Of a stretch of DNA of 60,306 nucleotides, positions 3,421 to 29,366 are shown one piece after another. Source of the DNA: Chloroflexota bacterium (GTDB lineage Bacteria > Chloroflexota > Anaerolineae > Anaerolineales > Villigracilaceae); assembly GCA_016235425.1 (NCBI GenBank), contig JACRLC010000084.1, positions 1 to 60,306 of the forward strand, in the 5' to 3' direction. The stretch's first letter is position 1, and the number at the start of each line of letters is the position of its first letter. Both the position numbers and the translations under genes were made by a program. Under the pieces are notes generated by a model. It had not been told where the DNA came from and did no database searches. It saw only the letters and a program-made list of their open reading frames with translations.

Positions 3421-4314
3421 TCACGGAGTTATACTACTTGCACAGCGGAATCCAACGCCATCATACGAATCGTCCAGTCCATACCATAGACGATACGCCG
3501 CGCGTCCAAAACCAAACGTGAAGTTCCACGAACCGCCGCGCATCCCGCGATAGTCTGTAATTGCAGGGTCAACACCCTGGGGATTGGATGCAGGCGAAAC
3601 AGCATAATAATTTTGAATGGAAGCGTTAATGGGATCAACTTCAATAAAGGCATCGTTCACCCATTCCCACACATTACCGCCCATGTCCAATGCCCCATAC
3701 GCGCTTGCACCTTCGGGAAAACTTCCAACTGGCGAGCTATGGGCAAATCCATCACAATTCGGTGCCGTATCCGGCATCAGGGAGGCGTCCAACTGAATCT
3801 CGTCGTCGAAATTTCCCTTTGTGCAGTCATACTCATTCCCCCACGGATATACCCGCTGTTCGTTTGCGATTGGATCCCAACTCGCGGCTTTCTCCCATTC
3901 TGCCTCTGTGGGCAGGCGGCGGCCGGCCCACGCGCAATAATTCCCTGCATCAACCCATGATACAGAGGCCACTGGATGATTGGCATACGCGGGATCGTCA
4001 AAATAAACTGTCGAATTCGGTTCTTTACATTGACCTGCTCCGACACAATTTCCATACATTTCATTGGTAATTTCAGTTTGATCCAGCCAAAAGGCATCAA
4101 GGAACACAGTGTGCAGAGGACGCTCGTCCGTCATCCCGGCTTCGCTTCCCATTTTGAATTCGCCCTCCGGCACGTAGACCATGGTCATTCCGTCTACCGG
4201 TGAAACAAGCGCACTCCCCAATGTCGGAGTAGAGGCCCCTGTTGGCGCAGGTGAGCATCCTGCCAAAGCAATCAAAGCTAAAACAACGGCGAACAGGCAA
4301 ACATTTTTACTCAT
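3421..4314 (-). CDS. SUMF1/FGE-domain lipoprotein
   Basis: A 297-residue exported protein. The signal peptide ends in a lipobox LAGC (Cys20). The rest is an FGE-sulfatase (SUMF1) domain with its usual signposts: YVPEGEFKMGS, RPLHTVFLDAFWLDQTEITN, RRLPTEAEWEKAA, YPWGNE, GNVWEWVND and a terminal MRGGSWNF...GFRCAS. A GGAAT ribosome site precedes the ATG. Such surface FGE folds are often binding rather than formylglycine-forming. It is a relative of the variable FGE protein at 26.6 kb but its C-terminus does not match that gene's template repeat. Confidence 0.88.
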   Translation of the reverse strand: MSKNVCLFAVVLALIALAGCSPAPTGASTPTLGSALVSPVDGMTMVYVPEGEFKMGSEAGMTDERPLHTVFLDAFWLDQTEITNEMYGNCVGAGQCKEPNSTVYFDDPAYANHPVASVSWVDAGNYCAWAGRRLPTEAEWEKAASWDPIANEQRVYPWGNEYDCTKGNFDDEIQLDASLMPDTAPNCDGFAHSSPVGSFPEGASAYGALDMGGNVWEWVNDAFIEVDPINASIQNYYAVSPASNPQGVDPAITDYRGMRGGSWNFTFGFGRAAYRLWYGLDDSYDGVGFRCASSITP

Positions 4315-5991: not shown

Positions 5992-8031
5992 TCACCCGTC
6001 AACGAGAAAGACGTGAAGTTCGCCGGGGCCATGCACTCCGATGGTGAGCGTCATTTCGATGTCCGCGGTGCGCGAGGGGCCGGTGATGAAAACCGCGGAT
6101 TTGGTCCCACGAACCAAATTTACCGCATCTTCAAGCGACGGCAAAATATCGGACCTTTTCAACACCGCGATGTGGACTTCAGGAAGCAGGGACGCGTGCA
6201 ATGGGTTTCCTTCCCCATCCGCTTCCAAAATGGACCCGGTATCTGCCAGCCCACAAATGGCCCTCGTCACCCCGACGCGGATCGCGGGGTCAGGTATGCT
6301 GGTTGATGTGATGTTTGCATATGCCAACGCGGATTCGTCGAGGATGTTTGGCTCCAGATGAATATGATTGACGCCGCGTGATTTTAGGAATGCAACAATG
6401 TCGCGCGTGGGGTTGCCCGTTGGGATGACTTGTCCGCCGAGGGCGGTGAGTTCGGTAGTGAAATCTGTCTTGTGGAGTCCAACGTCTTCGCGAAGCACCC
6501 CCGTGGGGCCTGACGTTGGATGTTCTGGTTCACGCCGAAGTCGGGAGACGTTGGACTCCGTTTCTTTCTCAAACCTCGCCCGAAACGGTTTCACCGCGAA
6601 TCTTGGAAAGTCCTTGCTGTAGCCCCAGCCTGTGAATGCGGGAATGCGGAACATGTGTGAGCGAGGGGAAACGAGATGACTTTCAGCCGCCGCGAGTCTC
6701 TGCGAAACGGCGAACAGGCGCGGGTCCCGCGCGATGCGGCTGTAAATCTGCATGAAGAATCTTGAGGAGGGCGAAAGTCCCTCACCCCTGGCCCCTCTCC
6801 CAAAGGTAGAGGGGGATTGTCCTGCGCGGACTCTGGTTAGAAGTTTTGGGAGGTCAATGTCAACGGGACAGGCGTCTTTGCACGCACCGCACAGGGACGA
6901 GGCTTGGGCGAGCGGGACGAATTCGCTTCCAAAGAGTCCCGCGGAAATGACGGAGCCGATGGGGCCGGGGTAAACGCTTCCGTAGGCGTGGCCGCCGAGT
7001 TCGCGGAAAACGGGACAGGCGTTGAGGCACGCGCCACAACGGATGCAGTAAAGCGATTCGGCGAGTGGGGAATTACGGAGGCGCGTACGGCCGTTGTCGA
7101 GGATGACGATGTGACGTTGCTGGCCTTCGAGCGGGCTATGAAGTATCTGGGTGTAGACGCTGAGTTTTTGACCCGTTGCCGAACGAGGAAGAAGCGAGAG
7201 CATGAGGGCGAGATCGTCGAGAGTCGGGACGAGGCGTTCCATGCCCATCAGCGCGATGTGCGTCTGCGGGAGCGTGGTGACCATGCGTCCGTTGCCTTCG
7301 TTGGTGACGATGCAGATGCCGCCCGTCTCCGCAATGCCGAAGTTGACGCCGCTGATGCCTATGTCGGCGGTGAGGAAAACTTCGCGCAGGACTTTGCGCG
7401 CGGTGTTGGTGAGGGTAGGGATGTCTTCGGTGTAGGGAATGCCGAGTTTTTCGTGGAAGAGCTGGCCGACGTCGCCGCGGCGAAGATGCACGGCGGGCGT
7501 GATGATATGTGCGGGGCGCTCATTGCGGAGTTGCACAATGTACTCGCCGAGGTCGGTCTCGACGACGCGAATGCGCCGTCCTGAGCTTGTCGAAGGGCCT
7601 TCTCTTTCCAGAGCGTGGTTGAGGTTGATTTCCTCGCTGACCATGCTCTTGGATTTGGCGACCAGGATGTTGCGTGGTTGGTGGTCGAGTAGGCGGTGTT
7701 CGTCCGCCATATCGGGACCTGCGTGTTGCGCAGCTCGTAATTGGTAATTCGTAATTTCAATGACTGCGCGGATTGCTTCGTCTGCATTCGCGGCGCGATG
7801 GACAGTGACATGGTTCTCTTTCGCTTTTGCGATGAATTGTTCGAGATGTTCGTCGAGATGCGCGATAACTTCGGCGCGGACGGCGTGTGCGCGCTGGCGT
7901 CTTTCCCTCCAATCAGGCAGGGAGGCGAATGCGGTGACGCGTCCCTGCACACGGCGTTCGGCGTTGGCGTCGAGCGCGGCTTGCAGGGATGAGTTTGCCA
8001 GGGATGAGCGGATGCGGGCGCGGAAGGTCAT
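5992..8031 (-). CDS. LutB-LutC fusion: lactate-utilisation iron-sulfur protein
   Basis: 679 residues from the ATG at 8031, chosen because it follows the upstream stop by one base. Domains: LutB-type LUD domain (about 30-320), two [4Fe-4S] motifs (CIRCGACLNACPVF near 328-340 and LCGACKDACPVDI near 378-390), then a second LUD domain resembling LutC (about 520-679). In Bacillus LutB and LutC are separate subunits that, with LutA, oxidise L-lactate. Here they are fused, and the linker is largely made of translated repeats (see findings). It is the last gene of a cluster with a binding protein and a giant membrane protein; LutA is upstream on its own promoter. Confidence 0.88.
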   Translation of the reverse strand: MTFRARIRSSLANSSLQAALDANAERRVQGRVTAFASLPDWRERRQRAHAVRAEVIAHLDEHLEQFIAKAKENHVTVHRAANADEAIRAVIEITNYQLRAAQHAGPDMADEHRLLDHQPRNILVAKSKSMVSEEINLNHALEREGPSTSSGRRIRVVETDLGEYIVQLRNERPAHIITPAVHLRRGDVGQLFHEKLGIPYTEDIPTLTNTARKVLREVFLTADIGISGVNFGIAETGGICIVTNEGNGRMVTTLPQTHIALMGMERLVPTLDDLALMLSLLPRSATGQKLSVYTQILHSPLEGQQRHIVILDNGRTRLRNSPLAESLYCIRCGACLNACPVFRELGGHAYGSVYPGPIGSVISAGLFGSEFVPLAQASSLCGACKDACPVDIDLPKLLTRVRAGQSPSTFGRGARGEGLSPSSRFFMQIYSRIARDPRLFAVSQRLAAAESHLVSPRSHMFRIPAFTGWGYSKDFPRFAVKPFRARFEKETESNVSRLRREPEHPTSGPTGVLREDVGLHKTDFTTELTALGGQVIPTGNPTRDIVAFLKSRGVNHIHLEPNILDESALAYANITSTSIPDPAIRVGVTRAICGLADTGSILEADGEGNPLHASLLPEVHIAVLKRSDILPSLEDAVNLVRGTKSAVFITGPSRTADIEMTLTIGVHGPGELHVFLVDG
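6474..6559. repeat. 86-bp element with 14-bp terminal inverted repeats inside LutBC
   Basis: GGAGTCCAACGTCT at 6474-6487 is exactly inverted at 6546-6559. The element is read in frame as about 28 residues (ESNVSRLRREPEHPTSG...) of the LutB-LutC linker. A related copy with GAAGTCGGGAGACTTCGGACTCC lies between genes at about 29745-29770, showing that this is a mobile repeat rather than a protein motif. Confidence 0.75.
6780..6801. repeat. 22-mer repeat copy inside LutBC
   Basis: A 22-base block beginning CCTCACCCCTGG is identical to 57061-57082 at the 3' end of the EcfA1 gene. Here it is translated on the minus strand as part of GRGARGEGLS in the linker after the second iron-sulfur motif. Confidence 0.75.
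7581..7595. repeat. REP-type 15-mer inside LutBC
   Basis: Identical to the intergenic copy at 5944-5958. In LutBC it is translated in frame as PSTSSG, within the N-terminal LUD domain at the point where homologues would continue from NHALE to RIRVVETDLGE. Confidence 0.75.
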
Positions 8032-8032
8032 G

Positions 8033-9724
8033 TTATGGGGAGATCGTTGTGAACAATTTAAACTCACCGCCAAATTCACCGACCGAGTTGTAGCGATAGA
8101 TTTCAATCACGGGCTGGCCGCAGTCACCGTATTGATTGCAGGTAAGCGTCCCTGTTTTTCCGGGGAAGTTACGTCTTGCATAAAGAACGTCGCGGATGGC
8201 CTGCCTGCCGATGTGCATGGTTCCATCGGCGTCAACTTCTGCGACTTTCGCAATGGCTTCGAGCAGCAAAGTGGTGACGTCATAGCCAAACTCGAATGAT
8301 CGTTCAAAGTAATCCGGGACGATTCTTGGATAGTGGGTTGTGTACCCGCTGGAACCGGATTCATCCACATAGGTGTTGTTGAAGGTCATGGATGAGAGTC
8401 CGAGCAGGGCGACGCTATCGCCATAATATTCATAAGTAATGTTCGCGAAGGAGCTGCCGAATGCCGGCAGTGGGAAGTAAATGGCATCCGGGGTTTGCTG
8501 GCCTGCGGCAATTCTGGTGTAGATTATTTCCTGGTAAATGCTCATATCGTAAATCTCATCGGTATCCAGAATTTTTCCTCCCAATTCCAGGAACTGGGCC
8601 GAAAAGGTCTCCGCGAGTTCTTTTGAGTAGTCATTGCCCTCATAAGCGACCGAAACGTATCTTGCGCCAAGATACTCGTACGCGTAGATTGCCATGCCGC
8701 GCGCTTCCACACCATCCGCCGCGGAGATGCGGAAATAGCCCTCCGGGTGAGTCCCCGGCGCGGTGAGGGATGTACGCGTATTGGACGGTGAAATCATGGT
8801 ATAGCCGGCGCCGGAGAAATAGGACATGGCGGCTATTGCCGCGCCAGAGCAAATGGTTCCAACGACGCCTGCAATGGACGGGTCGTTGACGATTCGTTCG
8901 GCGCTGGCAGAGGCCAGGTCGGAGTTACAGCCGTCATCGAAGGTCACGGCTTCAATTCCATGGCCTTTAATTTCTCCATAGTCATCAATCGCTGTGAAGA
9001 ATCCCTTCTCATTGCTGTAAGCAAGTTCCACAGCGGAACCGCTTTCGCCTGAATAGGAAAGCAATGCCGCGAGTCGAACCGGCTCGCCGGGCGCGTAGTT
9101 GATGCATCCCAGCGGGTCGGTGCAGGTAAATGTGACGGGGGGTACGGTGGGCGGTTCAGTGACCGGGACCGGGATTGCCGCCGTTTCAAAAGCGATGAAC
9201 GTGGTGAAGTGATTCACGCTGGCCTGGGCGCACCAGCCCGTGCAATTGACCTGCGCTTGAACGACCTCCTCGAACAGGTTGTTGTTATCTTCGTCGAAAA
9301 TGTAGACATCCACGTACTGCGCGCTCACCTGCCGGATCAGGGGAATGGTGATCGTGACAAAGGAATCGAACTGCATCCCCGACGGACTGAGCTTGATTGC
9401 GCCCAGCACTTCGCCGGTCTGGCCTGTTGAATTTTCGACCGCCTCGTCGAGTTGGGTTTGTTCGGATGTGCTGAGGCAGTCAATGGAGATGGTCTCCGTC
9501 CCTGAAAAACTGCCTGCGGGAATGTTGATATTTCCGGTCGCGGTCCCGCAGTCCACGGGGATGCCCTCGGCGGGCGTGCCGACATCTCCGTCAACGACTT
9601 CTTGATTGCTGTCGGATGGTATGGTGGATGACGGTGGATTGGTTGGAGTCGGGGTGGGCGTGGGGCCGCAAAAGATCGAGGTCAGCAGGATGGCGGCAAG
9701 TGCCAATGCGAATTTCCGGTTCAT
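8033..9724 (-). CDS. Branched-chain-amino-acid-type ABC substrate-binding protein
   Basis: A 563-residue exported protein. Residues 1-20 are a signal sequence ending SIFCG, an imperfect lipobox, followed by a Pro/Thr linker. Residues about 40-205 form an extra beta-rich region. From about 208 the protein is a type I periplasmic-binding domain (LivJ/Peripla_BP_6): VRLAALLSYSG, FDDGCNSDLASASAERIV, GVVGTICSGAAIAA, MISPSNT and YVSVAYEGNDYSKELAETF. An AGGAGG site overlaps the stop of the upstream gene and LutBC starts one base after this stop, so the three are one operon. No permease or ATPase for it lies here, so it may be a receptor rather than a transporter part. Confidence 0.82.
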   Translation of the reverse strand: MNRKFALALAAILLTSIFCGPTPTPTPTNPPSSTIPSDSNQEVVDGDVGTPAEGIPVDCGTATGNINIPAGSFSGTETISIDCLSTSEQTQLDEAVENSTGQTGEVLGAIKLSPSGMQFDSFVTITIPLIRQVSAQYVDVYIFDEDNNNLFEEVVQAQVNCTGWCAQASVNHFTTFIAFETAAIPVPVTEPPTVPPVTFTCTDPLGCINYAPGEPVRLAALLSYSGESGSAVELAYSNEKGFFTAIDDYGEIKGHGIEAVTFDDGCNSDLASASAERIVNDPSIAGVVGTICSGAAIAAMSYFSGAGYTMISPSNTRTSLTAPGTHPEGYFRISAADGVEARGMAIYAYEYLGARYVSVAYEGNDYSKELAETFSAQFLELGGKILDTDEIYDMSIYQEIIYTRIAAGQQTPDAIYFPLPAFGSSFANITYEYYGDSVALLGLSSMTFNNTYVDESGSSGYTTHYPRIVPDYFERSFEFGYDVTTLLLEAIAKVAEVDADGTMHIGRQAIRDVLYARRNFPGKTGTLTCNQYGDCGQPVIEIYRYNSVGEFGGEFKLFTTISP

Positions 9725-22793: not shown

Positions 22794-24980
22794 ATGAAAC
22801 AACTCCTCCAAAACATCAAAACAGGTCAAGCCACCATCGAAGAGATTCCCATCCCCACTCCGCGTGCGGGACAGGCCCTTGTCAAAGTATCTGCATCCCT
22901 CGTCTCTGCTGGAACCGAACGCATGGTCGTCGAATTTGCTGAAAAGAGTCTTGTCGGCAAAGCGCGCTCGCGTCCCGATCTCGTCAAGCAGGTTCTCGAC
23001 AAAGCCAAACGTGAAGGTGTTGTCAATACCATGCAGGCCGCCTTCAATCGTCTCGACCAGCCGATGGCGCTTGGCTATTCCACGGCTGGCACAATCGTTG
23101 CGCTTGGCCCAAACATGCAGGGCTTCAAAATCGGTCAACGCGTGGCCTGCGCGGGCGGCGGTTATGCCACGCACGCCGAATACAACATCGTCCCTCGCAA
23201 CCTGCTCACGCCTCTCCCCAAAAAAGTTGATTTTGAGTCAGCCGCCTTCACCACCCTCGGCGCGATTGCCCTTCACGGATTCCGCCTGGCCGAGCCGCAA
23301 ATCGGAGAGAACGTCGCAATTATCGGTCTGGGTCTTTTGGGATTATTGACGATTCAACTGGCGTCTGCGGCAGGATGCAACGTTCTCGGCATTGACCTCG
23401 ACCCGAAGAGGATTGCCCTCGCATCATCTCTTGGACTTGAGGCTGTCGCGCGTCAAAATGCTGAATCAGCGTCTGAATCATTCACCGCCAATCGCGGCTT
23501 CGACGCAGTCATCATCTGCGCGGACACCTCCTCCAACGACCCGATTGAACTTGCAGGCGTCATTGCCCGCGACCGCGCCCGCGTTGTCGCCACCGGTGCG
23601 GTTGGCTTGAGTATCCCTCGCAAGGTTTATTACGAAAAAGAAATTTCCTTCATCAACTCGCGTTCCTACGGCCCCGGCCGCTACGATGCCAACTACGAAG
23701 AAAACGGAAACGACTACCCCATCGGCTACATCCGCTGGACGGAGGGGCGAAATTTCAAGGCAATCGTTGATTTATTATCCAGTCGAAAGTTGAAGGTCGA
23801 AAGTCTCATCACGCATCGTTTCCCCATCGAAGAAGCGACGACTGCGTACGAAGTCATCACGGGAAAAAAGAAGGAACCGTTCCTCGGCGTACTTCTCACC
23901 TATTCAGAAGAAAACAGGAAGGAAGAAAGAAAGATCGTCTTTCCGACAATCGGCAATCGTAAATCGGCAGTCGTAAATCTTGGTGTCCTCGGTGCTGGGC
24001 TTTACGCCAATGCAACCTTACTTCCAGCCATAAAAAAAATAAGCGACATTGAGTTGGTCGGCATCGCGTCCCCCGGCGGATTGCACGCCCAGCACTCAGG
24101 CAAAAAATTCGGCTTCCAATACGCCACCTCCAGCGACAATGAAATCCTCAGTGACCCGAATATCAACACCATCGCCATCCTCACCCGCCACGATTCCCAC
24201 GCGGATCTGGTCATCAAGGCCCTGAAAGCAGGCAAGCACGTCTTTGTTGAGAAACCGTTGGCGATTAATGAACAGGAACTGAAAAAAGTTATTCGGACTC
24301 TGACCGTAGACCGTAGACCGAAGACCGAAAAAGACGGTCTACCGTCTGCCGTCCATGGTCTACTGATTGTTGGCTTCAACCGCCGCTTCTCCCCTCTCGC
24401 CCAATCTCTTAATTCTCAAATCTCTAATCTCCGCGAACCAAAGTACATCCATTATCGCGTCAACGCCGGCTGCCTCCCCTTCAACCACTGGACTCAAGAC
24501 CCCAACCTCGGCGGCGGGCGCATCATCGGCGAAGCCTGTCACTTCATTGACTTCATCACCTTCCTCGTCGGCGCGGCTCCCGTCAGCGTGACCGCGCACG
24601 CGCTCCCCGACGGCGGCAAATACCGCGAAGACAACGTCTCCATGACCTTCACTTTCCCCGATGGCTCTCTCGGCATCGTGGACTACCTCGCCAATGGCGA
24701 CAAATCCTTCCCCAAGGAGCGCGTCGAAGTATTTTGCGGCGGGCAAATTGCGATTTTGGATGATTTTGTTTCGCTGGTCACGGTCAAAGATGGAAAGAAG
24801 AAAGAGGAAAGACGGGCGCAGGATAAAGGCTGGAAGAACGAAATGGAGACCTTCGCCAAAGCCATCCGCGAAGGCGGACAGCCGCCGATTCCCTACGAGC
24901 AACTCATCGGTGTGACCAGGTCCACATTCGCGGTGGTGGCGTCATTGCGAAAAAATTCGCAGAGTATAATAGTTGCATGA
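22794..24980 (+). CDS. Bi-domain oxidoreductase (zinc-type MDR plus Gfo/Idh/MocA)
   Basis: 728 residues. Residues about 1-355 are a medium-chain (zinc-alcohol type) dehydrogenase (AGQALVKVSASLVSAGTER, VAIIGLGLLGLLTIQLA as Rossmann loop). Residues about 385-728 are a Gfo/Idh/MocA dehydrogenase (LGVLGAGLYANATLLPAI, HVFVEKPLAI, GGRIIGEACHFIDF). Such fusions usually sit in cell-surface sugar pathways. At least three short repeats are translated in frame in the joining and loop regions (GNRKSAVVN, VDRRPKTEKDGLPSAVHG, DGKKKEERR). The last codons contain the promoter of the next gene, and TGA overlaps its ATG. Confidence 0.9.
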   Translation: MKQLLQNIKTGQATIEEIPIPTPRAGQALVKVSASLVSAGTERMVVEFAEKSLVGKARSRPDLVKQVLDKAKREGVVNTMQAAFNRLDQPMALGYSTAGTIVALGPNMQGFKIGQRVACAGGGYATHAEYNIVPRNLLTPLPKKVDFESAAFTTLGAIALHGFRLAEPQIGENVAIIGLGLLGLLTIQLASAAGCNVLGIDLDPKRIALASSLGLEAVARQNAESASESFTANRGFDAVIICADTSSNDPIELAGVIARDRARVVATGAVGLSIPRKVYYEKEISFINSRSYGPGRYDANYEENGNDYPIGYIRWTEGRNFKAIVDLLSSRKLKVESLITHRFPIEEATTAYEVITGKKKEPFLGVLLTYSEENRKEERKIVFPTIGNRKSAVVNLGVLGAGLYANATLLPAIKKISDIELVGIASPGGLHAQHSGKKFGFQYATSSDNEILSDPNINTIAILTRHDSHADLVIKALKAGKHVFVEKPLAINEQELKKVIRTLTVDRRPKTEKDGLPSAVHGLLIVGFNRRFSPLAQSLNSQISNLREPKYIHYRVNAGCLPFNHWTQDPNLGGGRIIGEACHFIDFITFLVGAAPVSVTAHALPDGGKYREDNVSMTFTFPDGSLGIVDYLANGDKSFPKERVEVFCGGQIAILDDFVSLVTVKDGKKKEERRAQDKGWKNEMETFAKAIREGGQPPIPYEQLIGVTRSTFAVVASLRKNSQSIIVA
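24301..24364. repeat. Imperfect inverted repeat inside the bi-domain oxidoreductase
   Basis: CCGTAGACCGTAGACCGAAGACCG is mirrored by CGGTCTACCGTCTGCCGTCCATGGTCTAC. It is translated in frame as a loop between HVFVEKPLAI... and LLIVGFNRR, where ordinary family members have only a short turn. Confidence 0.6.
24965..24970 (+). promoter_or_regulatory. -10 box of the first MNT gene, inside the oxidoreductase 3' end
   Basis: TATAAT ends six bases before ATG 24977 and is read as codons for Ser-Ile-Ile near the oxidoreductase C-terminus. The same arrangement recurs at 25940-25945. Confidence 0.6.
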
Positions 24981-25393
24981 ACACGCGCTTGCAAACGATT
25001 GAGCAATTATGCAGGAAATACCAAGTCAAAGCGTTGTATGTCTTTGGCAGCCGCAGCGCGGACATGCTCCATGCAATCAATAATGACACATATCAACTTG
25101 CTTCATCTCAAAGCGACCTGGATATTGGTGTCCTAACCCATTCCCCGTTTTCGATTGAAAGCAAAGTAAACCTGACGCTTGAACTGGAAGCGGTATTTAA
25201 CGCTCCTCGTGTGGACTTGTTCATCTTGCAGGAAGCGGATACTTTCCTTGCGGCAAACATCATTCGCGGCGAGCGCATTTATGCAGAGGATACTTATCTC
25301 GCCGACGAATACGACCTGTTTGTTCTTCGCCGCGCAGGAGATTTGGCGGAATTGGAACGCCAGCGCATGGCAATGATTTTGCAGGAGAGCTAG
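24977..25393 (+). CDS. MNT-type nucleotidyltransferase antitoxin
   Basis: 138 residues with the minimal nucleotidyltransferase motif: GSRS then SDLDIGVL and a third Asp in APRVDLFIL. In HEPN/MNT systems this protein AMPylates or binds the HEPN toxin. The HEPN gene follows after one base. No ribosome site is seen; the start overlaps the upstream stop (ATGA) and has its own -10 box. Confidence 0.87.
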   Translation: MNTRLQTIEQLCRKYQVKALYVFGSRSADMLHAINNDTYQLASSQSDLDIGVLTHSPFSIESKVNLTLELEAVFNAPRVDLFILQEADTFLAANIIRGERIYAEDTYLADEYDLFVLRRAGDLAELERQRMAMILQES

Positions 25394-25394
25394 C

Positions 25395-25853
25395 ATGTTG
25401 CCCGGAAAAATTTCAAAACGCGTCGTGAGTGACCGCCTTGCATGGGTGGATCGGATGTTGAGTGAAATCCGCAGTCTTCCTTTGGAATCCAAGCCGAAAT
25501 TCATGCAGGATAAGAGAAATATTTGGGCGGCGGAATCCTGCCTGCGCCGCTCGCTGGAGGCCCTCTTTGACATGGGCAGGCACATCGCCGCAAAGGGATT
25601 CGGTGAAGCTGTTACAGAATATAAAGAGATTGCATCAACCTTGAACAGGCGAAATGTAATTTCAGCCAGCGATCTTGAACTTATGCAAAAACTGGCGGGA
25701 TATCGCAATCGCCTTGTCCATTTCTATCACGATGTCAGCGCGGATGAATTATTTGAGATCTGCGCCTCTCATTTGGGAGATGTTGAGCGAATCGTAAATG
25801 CCTTGCGTTCATGGCTTGCAAATAACCCAAAAATCATGGATGAAACTTTATAG
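25395..25853 (+). CDS. HEPN-domain toxin (HepT-like)
   Basis: 152 residues, all helical, with the HEPN RNase motif R-x4-H in YRNRLVHFYHDV (Arg-Asn ... His). It pairs with the MNT gene before it as a type VII-like toxin-antitoxin module. The protein is larger and of a different subfamily from the second HEPN at 26247. Confidence 0.87.
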   Translation: MLPGKISKRVVSDRLAWVDRMLSEIRSLPLESKPKFMQDKRNIWAAESCLRRSLEALFDMGRHIAAKGFGEAVTEYKEIASTLNRRNVISASDLELMQKLAGYRNRLVHFYHDVSADELFEICASHLGDVERIVNALRSWLANNPKIMDETL

Positions 25854-25954
25854 CAACTCATCGGCGTGACCAGGCCCGCACTTCGATAAACTCAGTGCAT
25901 CGCATTTGCGGCGGTGGAGTCGATTCGCTCTCGCACGAGTATAATAATTGCATG
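25853..25954 (+). pseudogene. Remnant of a second bi-domain oxidoreductase 3' end with REP insertion
   Basis: Removing a 24-base REP-like insertion (about 25878-25901, containing CTTCGATAAACTCAG) leaves an open frame QLIGVTRPAFAAVES... ending SIIIA and TGA. This parallels the real gene's last residues QLIGVTRSTFAVVAS... SIIVA at 24899-24980. DNA differences are mostly synonymous or conservative, so it derives from a different, coding oxidoreductase copy rather than a recent duplication. Confidence 0.7.
25940..25945 (+). promoter_or_regulatory. -10 box of the second MNT gene
   Basis: TATAAT six bases before ATG 25952, at the position equivalent to 24965-24970 relative to the oxidoreductase remnant. 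Confidence 0.6.
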
Positions 25955-26257
25955 ATAAAGATAAAAGTTCCCCGCAGAAAATTGACGGCGTTTTGCCGAA
26001 AGTATCGCATCCAAAAACTGGCGTTTTTTGGGTCGGTTCTGCGTGAGGACTTCAAACCTACAAGCGATGTGGACGTGCTTGTAGAGTTTGAAAAAGGTTA
26101 TACCCCTGGGCTTGCCTTCTTCGCCATGCCCGACGAGTTGAAAGAAATCCTTGGGCGCGACGTGGATTTGCTCACTTATCAAGGGATAACAGCCAGCAAA
26201 AACCCGATCCGCCGCAAAGCGATTTTGGAGTCTGCCCAGGTGTATTATGTTTCGTGA
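25952..26257 (+). CDS. Second MNT-type nucleotidyltransferase antitoxin
   Basis: 101 residues. Motif GSVLREDFKPTSDVDVLVEF holds the GS and D-x-D metal site, and GRDVDLLTYQGI the third Asp. This is the MntA (COG1669) type, different from the first module. Its 3' end overlaps the next HEPN gene by 11 bases. Confidence 0.9.
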   Translation: MIKIKVPRRKLTAFCRKYRIQKLAFFGSVLREDFKPTSDVDVLVEFEKGYTPGLAFFAMPDELKEILGRDVDLLTYQGITASKNPIRRKAILESAQVYYVS

Positions 26258-26576
26258 TGATGCTTATTTGTACGACATCCTAGAATCATCGCGCGCCGCG
26301 CTCGAATACACACGCGGCAAAACGTGGGATGAATTTTCAACAAGCCCACTTTTGCAGGATGCTGTTGTTCGTCGTTTGGAAATTATTGGTGAAGCGTCGG
26401 GTAGGGTTTCAAAGGCGACACAAAAGAAATATTCCCACCTGCCCTGGCAGGCCATGAAGGGGACACGCAACAAGATCATTCACGAATACGACTCAATCGA
26501 ACTCGATATTATTTGGGACATAATTCAACAGGACTTGCCATATCTGGTCAGCGAGTTGGAAAAAATAATTTTCTAA
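26247..26576 (+). CDS. Second HEPN toxin (DUF86/HepT)
   Basis: 109 residues of the DUF86 family: RRLEIIGEAS, LPWQAMKGTRNKIIHEYDSI with the RNxxxHEY ribonuclease motif, then IIQQDLPYLV. It forms a toxin-antitoxin pair with the overlapping MNT gene. It is the gene immediately before the DGR target. Confidence 0.93.
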   Translation: MFRDDAYLYDILESSRAALEYTRGKTWDEFSTSPLLQDAVVRRLEIIGEASGRVSKATQKKYSHLPWQAMKGTRNKIIHEYDSIELDIIWDIIQQDLPYLVSELEKIIF

Positions 26577-26653: not shown

Positions 26654-27967
26654 ATGAAGTCCGTTGACAGACATCTCCGCGTCTTCCTCTGCCACTCCAG
26701 CAATGACAAACCCGCTGTCCGCGAGTTGTACCAAAAACTCCGCGCCGAGCCGTGGATTCAACCCTGGCTGGACGAAGAAGAACTCTACCCGGGGCAGGAT
26801 TGGAACCTGGAGATCGAAAAAGCCGTCGAAGCCGCCGATGCGATCATTGTTTGCCTTTCCAAAGGTTCGATTACCAAGGAAGGTTATGTTCAACGCGAAT
26901 TAAGAATTGTGCTGGACTACGCCGACTACAAACCCGAAGGCACGTTATACCTTATGCCCGTGCGTTTGGAAGAATGTGAGCCGCCGCGCCGCTTGCGCCC
27001 GTGGCAATATGCCGATTATTTTGAAGGAAACCGTGAACGTGCATTGCAAAGACTGCTTGTCAGTTTAAAACGCCGCGCTGAGTCGCTGGACTTGACGATG
27101 GAAGAGCCTGCTCCGAACAAAGAGAGCAAAGAAAAGAAATCTGAAGTTAAAACCCCTGTCGCAAAAGCAGAACCTCTCTCGAAGCCTGCTGAAAAGAAAC
27201 CCCTCATCGAAACGCCCAGACCCGCGCCCGTTGCTGCCCCGCCGCCAAACAAACTCACCCTCTCCAATGACATGGAATTTATGCGTGTGCCAGCGGGTAA
27301 ATTCTTAATGGGCAGTACAAAAGAAAACAAATCTGCCTATGACGATGAACGCCCTCAACACACCGTTGACATCCCCTACGATTACTGGATGGCGCGTTTC
27401 CCTGTAACCAATGCGCAATACAACCAATTCAAGAAAAAGGATTTTGACAAGGGCAAAGAAAATCATCCTGTTGTTCGAGTGAACTGGAATGACGCGATGG
27501 AATACTGCAAATGGCTGAATCAATTAATGAAAGCCGAATTGCCGTCAGATTCGGTTTTACGGTTGCCCACCGAATCGGAATGGGAGAAAGCCGCGCGCGG
27601 AACAGACGGGCGAGAATATCCCTGGGGCAACACCTTCGACAAAAACAAATGCAACACTGATGAAGGCGGCAAAGGCGGGACAACTCCTGTCGGACTTTAT
27701 TCCCAACGAGGTGACTCCCCTTACGGTTGCGCTGACATGGGCGGCAACGTTTGGGAATGGACCCACAGCTTGAAACAGGCATACCCCTATAAGTTCAATG
27801 ATGGACGCGAAGATGAAAAGACTTCCGGGCGCCGTGTGCTGCGCGGCGGTTCCTTCCTCTTCAATGTGAGGGGCGCGCGCTGTGCCTGCCGCTACGCTTA
27901 CGGCTTCGCTTACTTCGGCGGCCGCGTCGGTTTTCGTGTGGTGGTGGCGTCCCCTATTCTCTCCTGA
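26654..27967 (+). CDS. DGR target: TIR domain fused to variable FGE/SUMF1 domain
   Basis: 437 residues from ATG 26654. Residues about 8-125 are a TIR domain (RVFLCHSSNDKPAVRELY, WLDEEELYPGQDW, SKGSITKEGYVQREL); TIR NADases carry the catalytic Glu in the second block. A Lys/Pro/Ala-rich linker (about 140-195) leads to an FGE-type C-type-lectin fold (about 200-437): FMRVPAGKFLMGS, RLPTESEWEKAAR, YPWGN, GGNVWEWTHS, RVLRGGSF, GFRVVVAS. The final 42 residues are the variable repeat of a diversity-generating retroelement. A cytoplasmic, sensor-plus-effector protein is implied, since there is no signal peptide. It follows two MNT/HEPN modules. Confidence 0.93.
   Translation: MKSVDRHLRVFLCHSSNDKPAVRELYQKLRAEPWIQPWLDEEELYPGQDWNLEIEKAVEAADAIIVCLSKGSITKEGYVQRELRIVLDYADYKPEGTLYLMPVRLEECEPPRRLRPWQYADYFEGNRERALQRLLVSLKRRAESLDLTMEEPAPNKESKEKKSEVKTPVAKAEPLSKPAEKKPLIETPRPAPVAAPPPNKLTLSNDMEFMRVPAGKFLMGSTKENKSAYDDERPQHTVDIPYDYWMARFPVTNAQYNQFKKKDFDKGKENHPVVRVNWNDAMEYCKWLNQLMKAELPSDSVLRLPTESEWEKAARGTDGREYPWGNTFDKNKCNTDEGGKGGTTPVGLYSQRGDSPYGCADMGGNVWEWTHSLKQAYPYKFNDGREDEKTSGRRVLRGGSFLFNVRGARCACRYAYGFAYFGGRVGFRVVVASPILS
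27828..27953 (+). repeat. DGR variable repeat (VR)
   Basis: 126 bp, ungapped match to the template repeat at 28097-28222. There are 21 differences and each lies at a template adenine (21 of 27 adenines changed; 0 of 99 other positions). In the protein, template Asn/Asp/Ile/Glu codons have become Leu, Phe, Val, Gly, Tyr, Ala and Arg. The last 25 bases (GGTTTTCGTGTGG onward) are GC-rich and identical, fitting an initiation-of-mutagenic-homology site. Both copies are followed by TGAAGGTTT. Confidence 0.97.
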
Positions 27968-28017
27968 AGGTTTTGAATTTCTGTTTTCTGAATTTCTGAA
28001 TCCTGTGTTCTTTCCCT

Positions 28018-28041
28018 CCCGCCGAAGGCGGGGATTTTTTT
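28018..28041 (+). terminator. Terminator of the DGR target gene
   Basis: CCCGCC-GAA-GGCGGG stem-loop followed by GA and seven T, 50 bp after the stop and before the template repeat's own -10 box. Confidence 0.8.
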
Positions 28042-28053
28042 GAAAAATGGGGC

Positions 28054-28059
28054 TATAAT
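28054..28059 (+). promoter_or_regulatory. -10 box for the template-repeat RNA
   Basis: GCTATAATG lies between the target-gene terminator and the template repeat, 38 bases before the repeat. No ORF with a start codon follows it sensibly, so it likely drives a non-coding template RNA. No clear -35 is seen. Confidence 0.5.
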
Positions 28060-28096
28060 GCCTGTGTCACTTTCAAGTGGCAGGGCTGACCGATCC

Positions 28097-28222
28097 AACG
28101 CCGTGTGCTGCGCGGCGGTTCCTTCATCAACAATGAGAGGAACGCGCGCTGTGCCTGCCGCAACGATAACGACATCGCTAACTTCAACAACAACATCGGT
28201 TTTCGTGTGGTGGTGGCGTCCC
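28097..28222 (+). repeat. DGR template repeat (TR)
   Basis: 126 bp, same strand as the target. Read in the target's frame it is rich in AAC (Asn) codons, e.g. NDNDIANFNNNIG, the hallmark of DGR templates because A-substitution at AAC gives many residues but no stop codon. See the variable repeat for the comparison. Confidence 0.96.
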
Positions 28223-28663
28223 ATGCCTCTCTATTTTTTGAAGGTTTCAAAGGCTTGCCTTTGTGCCGAATGCCAGCAGTGCTCTACGTTCACGGACGTA
28301 AGCCGAGGCGAAACAGGAGAGATAGCGCGGTCATTGCCCTGGCTGGGCGTTTTCCGTGTTCATCAATGGGCGGTGAAAGCGGGTTGGGGGAGGGCGTTCA
28401 GGCAAATATAAAAGAGGCTCACGCTTCGATGGCTCGACCATCCCAGCATGAGCCGCCCTTTTTAACTCCTGCCCGCTCCCGCTGGGGGAAGTAACCATCC
28501 ACGAATGAGCCACGAATACTCGAATTGCAGACTCTCATTCGTGAATTCGTGGTTCTATTCGTGGACGGCTTTTTGAATCTTCCTTTCCTCTTGCCCACTT
28601 CCATTGTGGGAAGTAAACTTTTACCACCAATTACCAATCACTAATTACCAACTGGAGTCCCCC
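28223..28663. other. 441-bp region downstream of the TR without a gene
   Basis: The place where a DGR reverse transcriptase is usually found. No RT motif (such as a Y-x-D-D box) can be read in any frame. It holds the probable 3' part of the template RNA, a terminator-like hairpin, then CACGAAT-type dispersed repeats (28498-28570) and CCAATTACCAATCACTAATTACC-type repeats up to the dapA-like fragment. Confidence 0.6.
28416..28463 (+). terminator. Nested hairpin with T-run downstream of the TR
   Basis: Outer stem GGCTCACGC/GCATGAGCC encloses an inner stem GATGG/CCATC; GCCCTTTTT follows. A plausible end for the template RNA. Confidence 0.5.
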
Positions 28664-28744
28664 ATGCACCTCAAAGGAATCTACGCCCCCATCGTCACCC
28701 CCTTCAACACAGACGAAAGCATCAACTATCCTGATCCTCTCTAA
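28664..28744 (+). pseudogene. Truncated dihydrodipicolinate-synthase-family gene start
   Basis: ATG with GGAG upstream, then 26 codons to TAA. The first 20 residues (MHLKGIYAPIVTPFNTDESI) are the unmistakable N-terminus of the DapA/NAL family, which normally runs to about 300 residues. The reading is cut after Asn-Tyr, so a deletion junction lies near 28730, just before the LysE-type gene. Confidence 0.7.
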
Positions 28745-28760
28745 ATTTACTTTTCAGACG

Positions 28761-29366
28761 ATGTGGATTTATCTTATTCAAGGGATCGGCTACGGACTTG
28801 CCGCCGCTTCCCAACCCGGACCGTTTCAGACGTATCTCATTTCCCAGTCATTGACGCGCGGCTGGAAGCGAACCCTGCCAGCCGCGTTCGCGCCGCTGGT
28901 GAGCGATGGCCCGATCATCTTGATCTGCCTGCTTGTGTTAAGCCAGGTCCCCGAATGGCTAGAGCGCGCGCTTCACATCGCAGGCGGGTTGTTTATTTTG
29001 TATTTGGCTTACGGCTCGTTCAAATCCTGGCGAAATTTTGACCTGCAAACAACACAGATTGATTCCGCCGCTGAACAAAGCATCCTCAGGGCCGCGATGA
29101 TGAACGCGCTCAATCCCAACCCGTATATTTTCTGGACTCTCGTGACAGGGCCGATTCTTTTGGCAGGCTGGCGCGAGACGCCAGTGAATGGGATTGGATT
29201 TTTGGCAGGTTTTTATGCGACCATGATCGCCAGCCTGGCCGCGATCATCCTTGTCTTTGGGATTGCGGCCAGGCTTGGGCCGAAGGTGAATCAAATCTTG
29301 TTGGGAGTCTCAGTGATTGCGCTGGTTTGTTTTGGGTTGTATCAGTTGTGGTTGGGGATGTTGTAG
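28761..29366 (+). CDS. LysE/RhtB-family exporter
   Basis: 201 residues with six hydrophobic segments and the family's N-terminal layout: GLAAASQPGPFQTYLISQSL, LVSDGPIILICLLV, YLAYGSFKSWR, and MNALNPNPYIFWTLVTGP with the conserved NPxP. These export amino acids or related small molecules. The gene begins at the deletion junction and lacks a clear ribosome site. Confidence 0.88.
   Translation: MWIYLIQGIGYGLAAASQPGPFQTYLISQSLTRGWKRTLPAAFAPLVSDGPIILICLLVLSQVPEWLERALHIAGGLFILYLAYGSFKSWRNFDLQTTQIDSAAEQSILRAAMMNALNPNPYIFWTLVTGPILLAGWRETPVNGIGFLAGFYATMIASLAAIILVFGIAARLGPKVNQILLGVSVIALVCFGLYQLWLGML

Follow-up and report, generated by a model that had tools for sequence, protein, structure and literature searches.

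How can a diversity-generating retroelement (DGR) show a regular TR/VR pair when no reverse transcriptase (RT) is encoded beside it? The question is raised by a locus in a 60,306-nucleotide stretch of DNA from a Chloroflexota bacterium, referred to as the window, which is contig C75 of assembly G000 (5.0 Mb, 109 contigs, estimated completeness 99.57%). The target gene, the TR, and the features between them are as follows.

26654 to 27967, forward strand: target gene, an open reading frame with TIR_2 (Pfam PF13676) and FGE-sulfatase (PF03781, C-type-lectin-like) domains
27830 to 27955, forward strand: VR, at the 3' end of the TIR-FGE target gene, with 20 mismatches to the TR, all at TR adenines
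28017 to 28033, forward strand: stem-loop CCCGCCGAAGGCGGG, about 62 nt 3' of the VR, a candidate DGR target-side stem-loop and/or target-gene terminator
28054 to 28059, forward strand: TATAAT, a candidate -10 box of a separate TR-RNA promoter, suggested by alignment conservation
28099 to 28224, forward strand: TR, from pair comparison with the VR

The target frame is open from 26513, and the ATG at 26654 is its likely start, judging from homologues. The FGE domain occupies residues 255 to 477 of the 484-residue protein, making it a DGR target of the C-type-lectin-like kind, and the VR ends 12 nt before the end of the open reading frame. Over 126 nt the TR and VR differ at 20 of 26 TR adenines and at none of the 100 other positions; with random placement, the probability that all 20 mismatches fall on TR adenines is about 2e-14. 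The adenine-only TR/VR signature, the hallmark of a DGR, is present in the window. Comparable stem-loops follow the VR in G048, G131, G044, G008, and G033, and unlike ones in G024, G020, and G013. The TATAAT motif was found in seven of the nine sequences that reach the site in alignment A1; G013 has TACAAT and G125 is without it. A sigma-70 promoter scan of 27900 to 28800 detected no promoter.

The original observation was that the window holds neither an RT nor an Avd-like open reading frame, and both absences held up. A tblastn search of the window with 30 DGR RTs (Brt and 29 frames taken from relatives) detected no RT. None of the three matches obtained was an RT: two came from the target-gene part (residues 192 to 417) of one query with a frame continuing from its target, and the third spanned 33 aa with an E value of 0.04. 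A divergent RT hidden 3' of the TR was also considered, and the 30 queries returned nothing for it. No Avd was found within 3 kb of the cassette or in genome G000, where the sole PF22296 candidate (C47, below cut-off) fits the 23S rRNA IVP family better (125.5 versus 25.6 bits). The DGR components absent from the window locus are a DGR-clade RT and Avd or an equivalent.

One explanation proposed at the outset was that an RT had been deleted in cis between the TR and LysE, with a broken dapA gene as the scar. The genes in question are the following.

28664 to 28744, forward strand: dapA 5' remnant, with homology ending near 28731; not an RT scar
28761 to 29366, forward strand: LysE-family translocator (PF01810), a neighbor

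The truncated dapA followed by LysE had been recognized correctly. dapA is truly broken, its homology ending after about 23 conserved residues, and the break near 28731 is on the LysE side. Nevertheless, a cis deletion is very improbable. Sister loci were compared for an RT between TR and dapA, and in G135, G122, G125, and G114 the target gene is followed by an intact dapA (289 to 291 aa) with no RT there. Cassettes with the same RNA type as the window (described below) precede one gene type, which we take to be queA-like, in six genomes (G020, G013, G008, G024, G032, and G033), again without an RT. Furthermore, tblastn found no RT fragment in 28474 to 28760. Among the sisters, the target is split over two frames in G135 and in G122, a contig end truncates it in G114, and in G125 two short open reading frames separate it from dapA. 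Elsewhere in these genomes, G125 and G135 had no DGR-RT match, and G114 and G122 had matches only on other contigs. The gene after the intact dapA in the four sisters is presumably proline-racemase-like, whereas LysE follows the cut dapA in the window.

The interval 3' of the TR, previously described as repeats, is the most informative part of the locus. A conserved structured RNA is encoded by most of its first 250 bp.

28239 to 28473, forward strand: DGR RNA scaffold (spacer RNA) common to RT-less and RT-bearing DGRs; 198 bits with RNA model R1, of which it is a training sequence
28272 to 28309, forward strand: arm with invariant closing GCC...GGC in the RNA alignment, containing hairpin H1 (28285 to 28300)
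28302 to 28326, forward strand: conserved core of the RNA scaffold
28416 to 28454, forward strand: 3' GC hairpin H4 followed by CCCTTTTT, terminator-like, with both-side changes in 7 of 10 pairs
28498 to 28565, forward strand: imperfect repeat that lies between the RNA and dapA, forms a hairpin as judged by eye, and is not part of the DGR

An alignment of this RNA from 10 RT-less loci has 40 predicted consensus pairs, 14 of them with both-side (compensatory) changes. In H1, both-side changes affect two pairs, and the closing pairs of the arm are invariant. H4 did not appear in the output of a terminator scan, which considers loops of at most 8 nt. Compared with shuffled sequences, the stability of the RNA folded alone was modest for the window (z of -1.9) and strong for G048 (z of -6.3). 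These predictions point to a structured spacer RNA 3' of the TR, a feature by which DGRs are recognized. Rfam gave no credible match; the five matches with E values up to 5 were all far under the gathering score. The core pattern was found in 11 stretches in genome_contigs, all titled Chloroflexi, Anaerolineae, Anaerolineales, or Anaerolinea. When up to 2 mismatches were allowed, the pattern matched 4 of the 396 genomes from the class, all in the window's family. Positions 28463 to 28572 have an 89% identical match in G114. A phage origin was considered and set aside, as the core pattern had no exact match in viral_contigs. Among the matches listed (10 of 20 records), the TIR-FGE protein resembled phage proteins in its FGE part only, at 30 to 33% identity.

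Model R1, built from the 10 RT-less loci only, was run over 56 sources and evaluated on 19 distinct RT-bearing loci with a scored TR/VR pair. In this held-out test 17 of the 19 loci gave a match immediately 3' of the TR, with E values of 5e-19 to 3e-5, and L085 (G036) and L092 (G073) were missed. The run gave three stray matches (E values of 0.05 to 0.1) and no match in BPP-1 or in two loci of G058. Scores above 150 bits were obtained at 11 places, 10 of which score high partly by construction; G033 was outside the training set. The model therefore indicates a homologous RNA common to the RT-less cassettes and their autonomous relatives. In BPP-1, the spacer after the TR is described as folding and recruiting RT-Avd (PMC12875486). 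Because R1 finds the RNA in 17 of 19 RT-bearing loci, the window cassette has kept a DGR RNA scaffold of this RT-Avd-recruiting kind. The likeness to BPP-1, as far as that account describes it, lies in adenine-specific transfer from TR to VR and in a folded spacer 3' of the TR; the difference is that BPP-1 encodes its RT and Avd beside the TR and the window cassette has neither.

Across the 152 genomes of the family, R1 produced 64 rows in 37 genomes, of which 60 were classified; those left out were G027:C104, which has an RT nearby, a second piece of G133:C19, and fragmentary matches of about 20 bits in G022 and G065. Among 47 RNAs that were not of the window type, 39 had RT sequence no more than 4 kb away (partial and remnant copies counted) and 8 had none, several of these being at contig ends. 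The expectation that the RT usually comes after the TR does not suit this family: of the 39 RT-bearing places, 29 have the RT before the RNA and 10 have it after, judged by coordinates. An RT lies downstream of the RNA in G147:C59, G020:C314, and G024:C4, and the order in the RT-bearing relatives G012, G114, and G138 is Avd, TR, RNA, RT.

The window-type RNA occurs in 13 of the 152 genomes, in five genera (G000, G008, G013, G019, G020, G024, G032, G033, G044, G048, G125, G131, and G133). The type was chosen by DNA similarity and the core pattern, not by RT absence, and in G033 by R1 alone; G131 and G133 score lower with R1 because contig ends cut their RNA, and their type was assigned by the core pattern. 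As far as the contigs reach, none of the 13 has a DGR RT within 4 kb; at least 1.6 kb is available on both sides in 10, and contig ends cut G032 and G133:C19 upstream and G131 downstream. G008 has a second, RT-bearing DGR about 11 kb from its RT-less cassette. A Pfam scan of seven targets found TIR-FGE proteins in the window, G048, G044, and G033, NACHT-FGE proteins in G024 and G131, and a KAP-FGE protein in G013. An Avd gene has been retained between VR and TR in G020, G024 (PF22296, 80.6 bits), and G033, and the layout of these three is that of the RT-bearing relatives minus the RT. This suggests that the RT was lost from a VR-Avd-TR-RT element and that Avd was later lost in some lines. In G131:C3 (L055) a gene of about 450 aa, which we take to be transposase-like, lies between the VR and TR of the RT-less cassette.

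From the adenine-only signature, the conserved RNA and its homology, the RT-less layout in 13 genomes, and the concerted evolution of TR and VR documented below, all directly observed, we infer that RT-Avd acts in trans. The window would then be a non-autonomous, or satellite, DGR with a target and VR, a TR, and a DGR RNA, and with no RT or Avd of its own, a reading that we regard as likely. The TR RNA would be transcribed, probably from its own promoter, and the scaffold kept in that RNA would recruit an RT-Avd complex. In copying the TR, the RT-Avd from another DGR would make errors at adenines, and the resulting cDNA would replace the VR of the TIR-FGE sensor. Of the two explanations first offered for the missing RT, action in trans is thus the better one, given the shared RNA, the 13 RT-less genomes, and an RT elsewhere in 8 of them, and the dapA deletion scar falls away.

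DGR RTs elsewhere in the genomes were counted at a profile E value of at most 1e-60, with a profile built from 22 RTs (21 from the family plus Brt). Such an RT was found in 39 of the 152 family genomes: 8 of the 13 with the cassette, including G044, whose RT a contig end truncates, and 31 of the 139 others (Fisher p of 0.005, not corrected for kinship). No intact DGR RT was found in the assemblies of the other five cassette genomes (G000, G013, G033, G125, and G131). G033 is in 4 contigs and 96% complete, and G131 has no RVT_1 match at all. Nearly all of the genomes compared are multi-contig drafts.

Comparison between lineages indicates that the cassettes were active after they diverged. The TR of the window differs from that of G048 at 11 of 90 non-adenine sites and from that of G044 at 22 of 89. 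At such sites the window VR follows its own TR without exception (11/11 versus G048, 13/13 versus G131, 16/16 versus G024, 22/22 versus G044, and 19/19 versus G013), and the partner VRs likewise follow their own TRs, that of G020 in 17 of 21. Because the VRs track their own TRs, retrohoming must have occurred after the lineages split, even though the loci hold no RT. The numbers of mismatches at adenines and at other positions are 20 and 0 in G000, 18 and 1 in G048, 17 and 0 in G131 and in G024, 16 and 0 in G044, 9 and 0 over 75 nt in G033, 9 and 2 in G013, 8 and 5 in G020, and 14 and 9 in G008. The VR lies beyond the contig end in G032 and G133. The TR is gone from G125 and G019, where target gene and scaffold remain (L142, about 9050 to 9300, and L150, about 7270 to 7470); in G125 the VR is joined directly to the scaffold, an arrangement that recombination between VR and TR would give.

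The chief weakness of the trans reading is that some cassette genomes are RT free and that clean pairs occur independently of RT presence. A link between a clean TR/VR pair and RT presence was sought among these genomes and none was found: G000, G131, and G033 have clean pairs and no RT, and the less clean pairs of G020 and G008 are in genomes with an RT. Recent loss, incomplete assemblies, or turnover of RTs in the population would each account for this.

A PF00078 search of G000, the genome of the window (E values up to 0.001), found two RTs, one on contig C91, adjoining what we take to be a Cas1-like gene, the other retron-like and on C24. No other full-length RT was found in G000, but it is hardly credible that either of the two serves the cassette. 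The SQ motif is a mark of DGR RTs, and neither has it: the sequences at the site are PLGSPLSP (C91) and AQGFPTSS (C24), compared with IGNLTSQ in the DGR RTs of the family. Moreover, G131 carries the same cassette type without any RVT_1 match.

A whole-genome search of G000 with the DGR-RT profile, which bears on the idea of an RT at another locus, found no intact DGR RT in the assembly. It added one trace, an N-terminal remnant at C81:18813-19052 that covers profile positions 4 to 83 of 355. The remnant lies directly 3' of a second FGE target gene (FGE only by Pfam), is internal rather than at a contig end, and shares 89 to 90% identity with RTs from G025 and G030. Its frame is kept over 77 codons, its nucleotide identity to G025 is 0.80, and of 78 codons compared with G025, 27 differ synonymously and 9 non-synonymously. 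The loss of the C81 RT looks recent because the frame is kept and the codon differences are rich in synonymous changes. R1 finds only one RNA in G000, that of the window; therefore, the RNA of the C81 element has also been lost or is unassembled. The RT remnants G000:C81 (L021, 7814 to 8050) and G024:C4 (L202) both break off after ISAAPF, at almost the same codon.

It is quite possible, if short of probable, that the DGR in this genome died recently, with RT and Avd lost, the cassette frozen, and the clean pair a sign of how recent the loss was; this would be compatible with action in trans in relatives. The in-frame, synonymous-rich C81 remnant fits such a history, as do the complete loss of the TR in G125 and G019 and a one-contig genome, G368, that has only RT fragments and yet a pair with 22 adenine mismatches and 0 others. 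What a dead DGR leaves unexplained is the RT-less layout together with the RNA in 13 genomes of five genera. Another possibility, which we hold to be somewhat doubtful, is an assembly or binning gap, in which an ordinary RT-bearing DGR elsewhere in G000 was missed. This would be a form of the trans reading, as the cassette itself would remain RT-less. G000 is in 109 contigs, and in relatives contig ends sometimes truncate a DGR RT (G044:C335 and G133:C247), but the high estimated completeness and the internal position of the C81 remnant speak against such a gap. With reconstituted BPP-1, inactivation of Avd was reported to cut repair to about 1e-9, like inactivation of the RT (PMC12875486). 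That no Avd was found in G000 counts against the trans reading. Under the trans reading, the donor in G000 appears broken, and the cassette, recently active, may be stalled, unless the RT is missing from the assembly.

RNAs recognized by R1 are not confined to the family. R1 matched 47 of 396 genomes of the class at E values up to 1e-5, and 20 places outside the family were taken from the top of the R1 list, omitting G474:C116 and G521. DGR-RT sequence was nearby in 12 of the 20 (7 intact, 5 partial or broken); 8 had none, several of them at contig ends and 5 with less than 1 kb on one side. G474 (14 adenine mismatches, 1 other) and G355 (10 and 1, with only 456 nt of downstream flank) have TR, VR, and RNA with no RT in the flanks; both genomes encode an intact RT at another place. 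G316 has a TR/VR pair with 17 and 0 mismatches and a kept Avd, with no RT found nearby or elsewhere. Within G073, L068 (C474) has 18 and 0 mismatches and no RT in a 12.5-kb stretch, and there is a DGR RT on another contig. The one-contig genome G368 (L237, C1:368270-368484) has, besides its RT fragments, Avd and scaffold RNA, and no other DGR RT was found in it. G058, the only other genome of the window's genus among those compared, has two more distant DGR-like RTs (L152 and L153, 333 and 309 bits) and no R1 RNA.

A broader proposal, offered tentatively, is that stable DGR satellites, consisting of a sensor gene, a TR, and a scaffold, RT free and often Avd free, are maintained over genera and use the RT-Avd of others as a resource that comes and goes, so that RT-free strains would update the sensor only upon regaining an RT. 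Degenerate DGR loci, and action in trans via the TR of a complete locus, have been described for Thiohalocapsa PB-PSB1 (PMC10907252). Its DGRs 1, 3, 4, 5, and 7 resemble the window in being incomplete loci or remote targets and in having TIR, NACHT, and CLec sensor-like targets, and trans action was proposed for DGRs 4 and 5. As described there, the VRs of DGRs 4 and 5 match the TR of the complete DGR 2, whereas the window-type cassette has its own diverged TR and RNA and its RT-less state spans genera. Partial DGRs of DUSEL4 nanoarchaea also consist of target, VR, and cis elements only, and one DGR there is without an RT open reading frame, but the partial loci are described without a TR and the account, as far as it goes, mentions no conserved RNA lineage (PMC4372165). 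Remote variable proteins of cyanobacteria likewise have a VR distant from the RT, but those genes match the TR of the genome's DGR, whereas the window has its TR beside the target and lacks an RT (PMC7517822). The open-access literature searched, to the extent that its content was available, held no report of a conserved RT-less TR/VR lineage with its own scaffold RNA. Judged from sequence comparison, such a lineage appears to be what is new here relative to known degenerate or trans-acting DGRs. The RNA model describes a conserved RNA that has no credible Rfam counterpart, locates DGR places independently of the RT, and makes trans action testable. The results suggest that these bacteria have a sensor repertoire exceeding their RTs in number.

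Two other features of the window were observed. Immediately 5' of the TIR-FGE gene, at 24977 to 26576, two MntA/HepT-type (type VII toxin-antitoxin) gene pairs lie in tandem, the second of which scores under the NCBIfam cut-offs and over those of Pfam. The open reading frame at 3421 to 4314 is possibly another FGE-domain gene, and positions 3490 to 4005 on the reverse strand resemble the target-gene part of a DGR query, with 27% identity over 194 aa.
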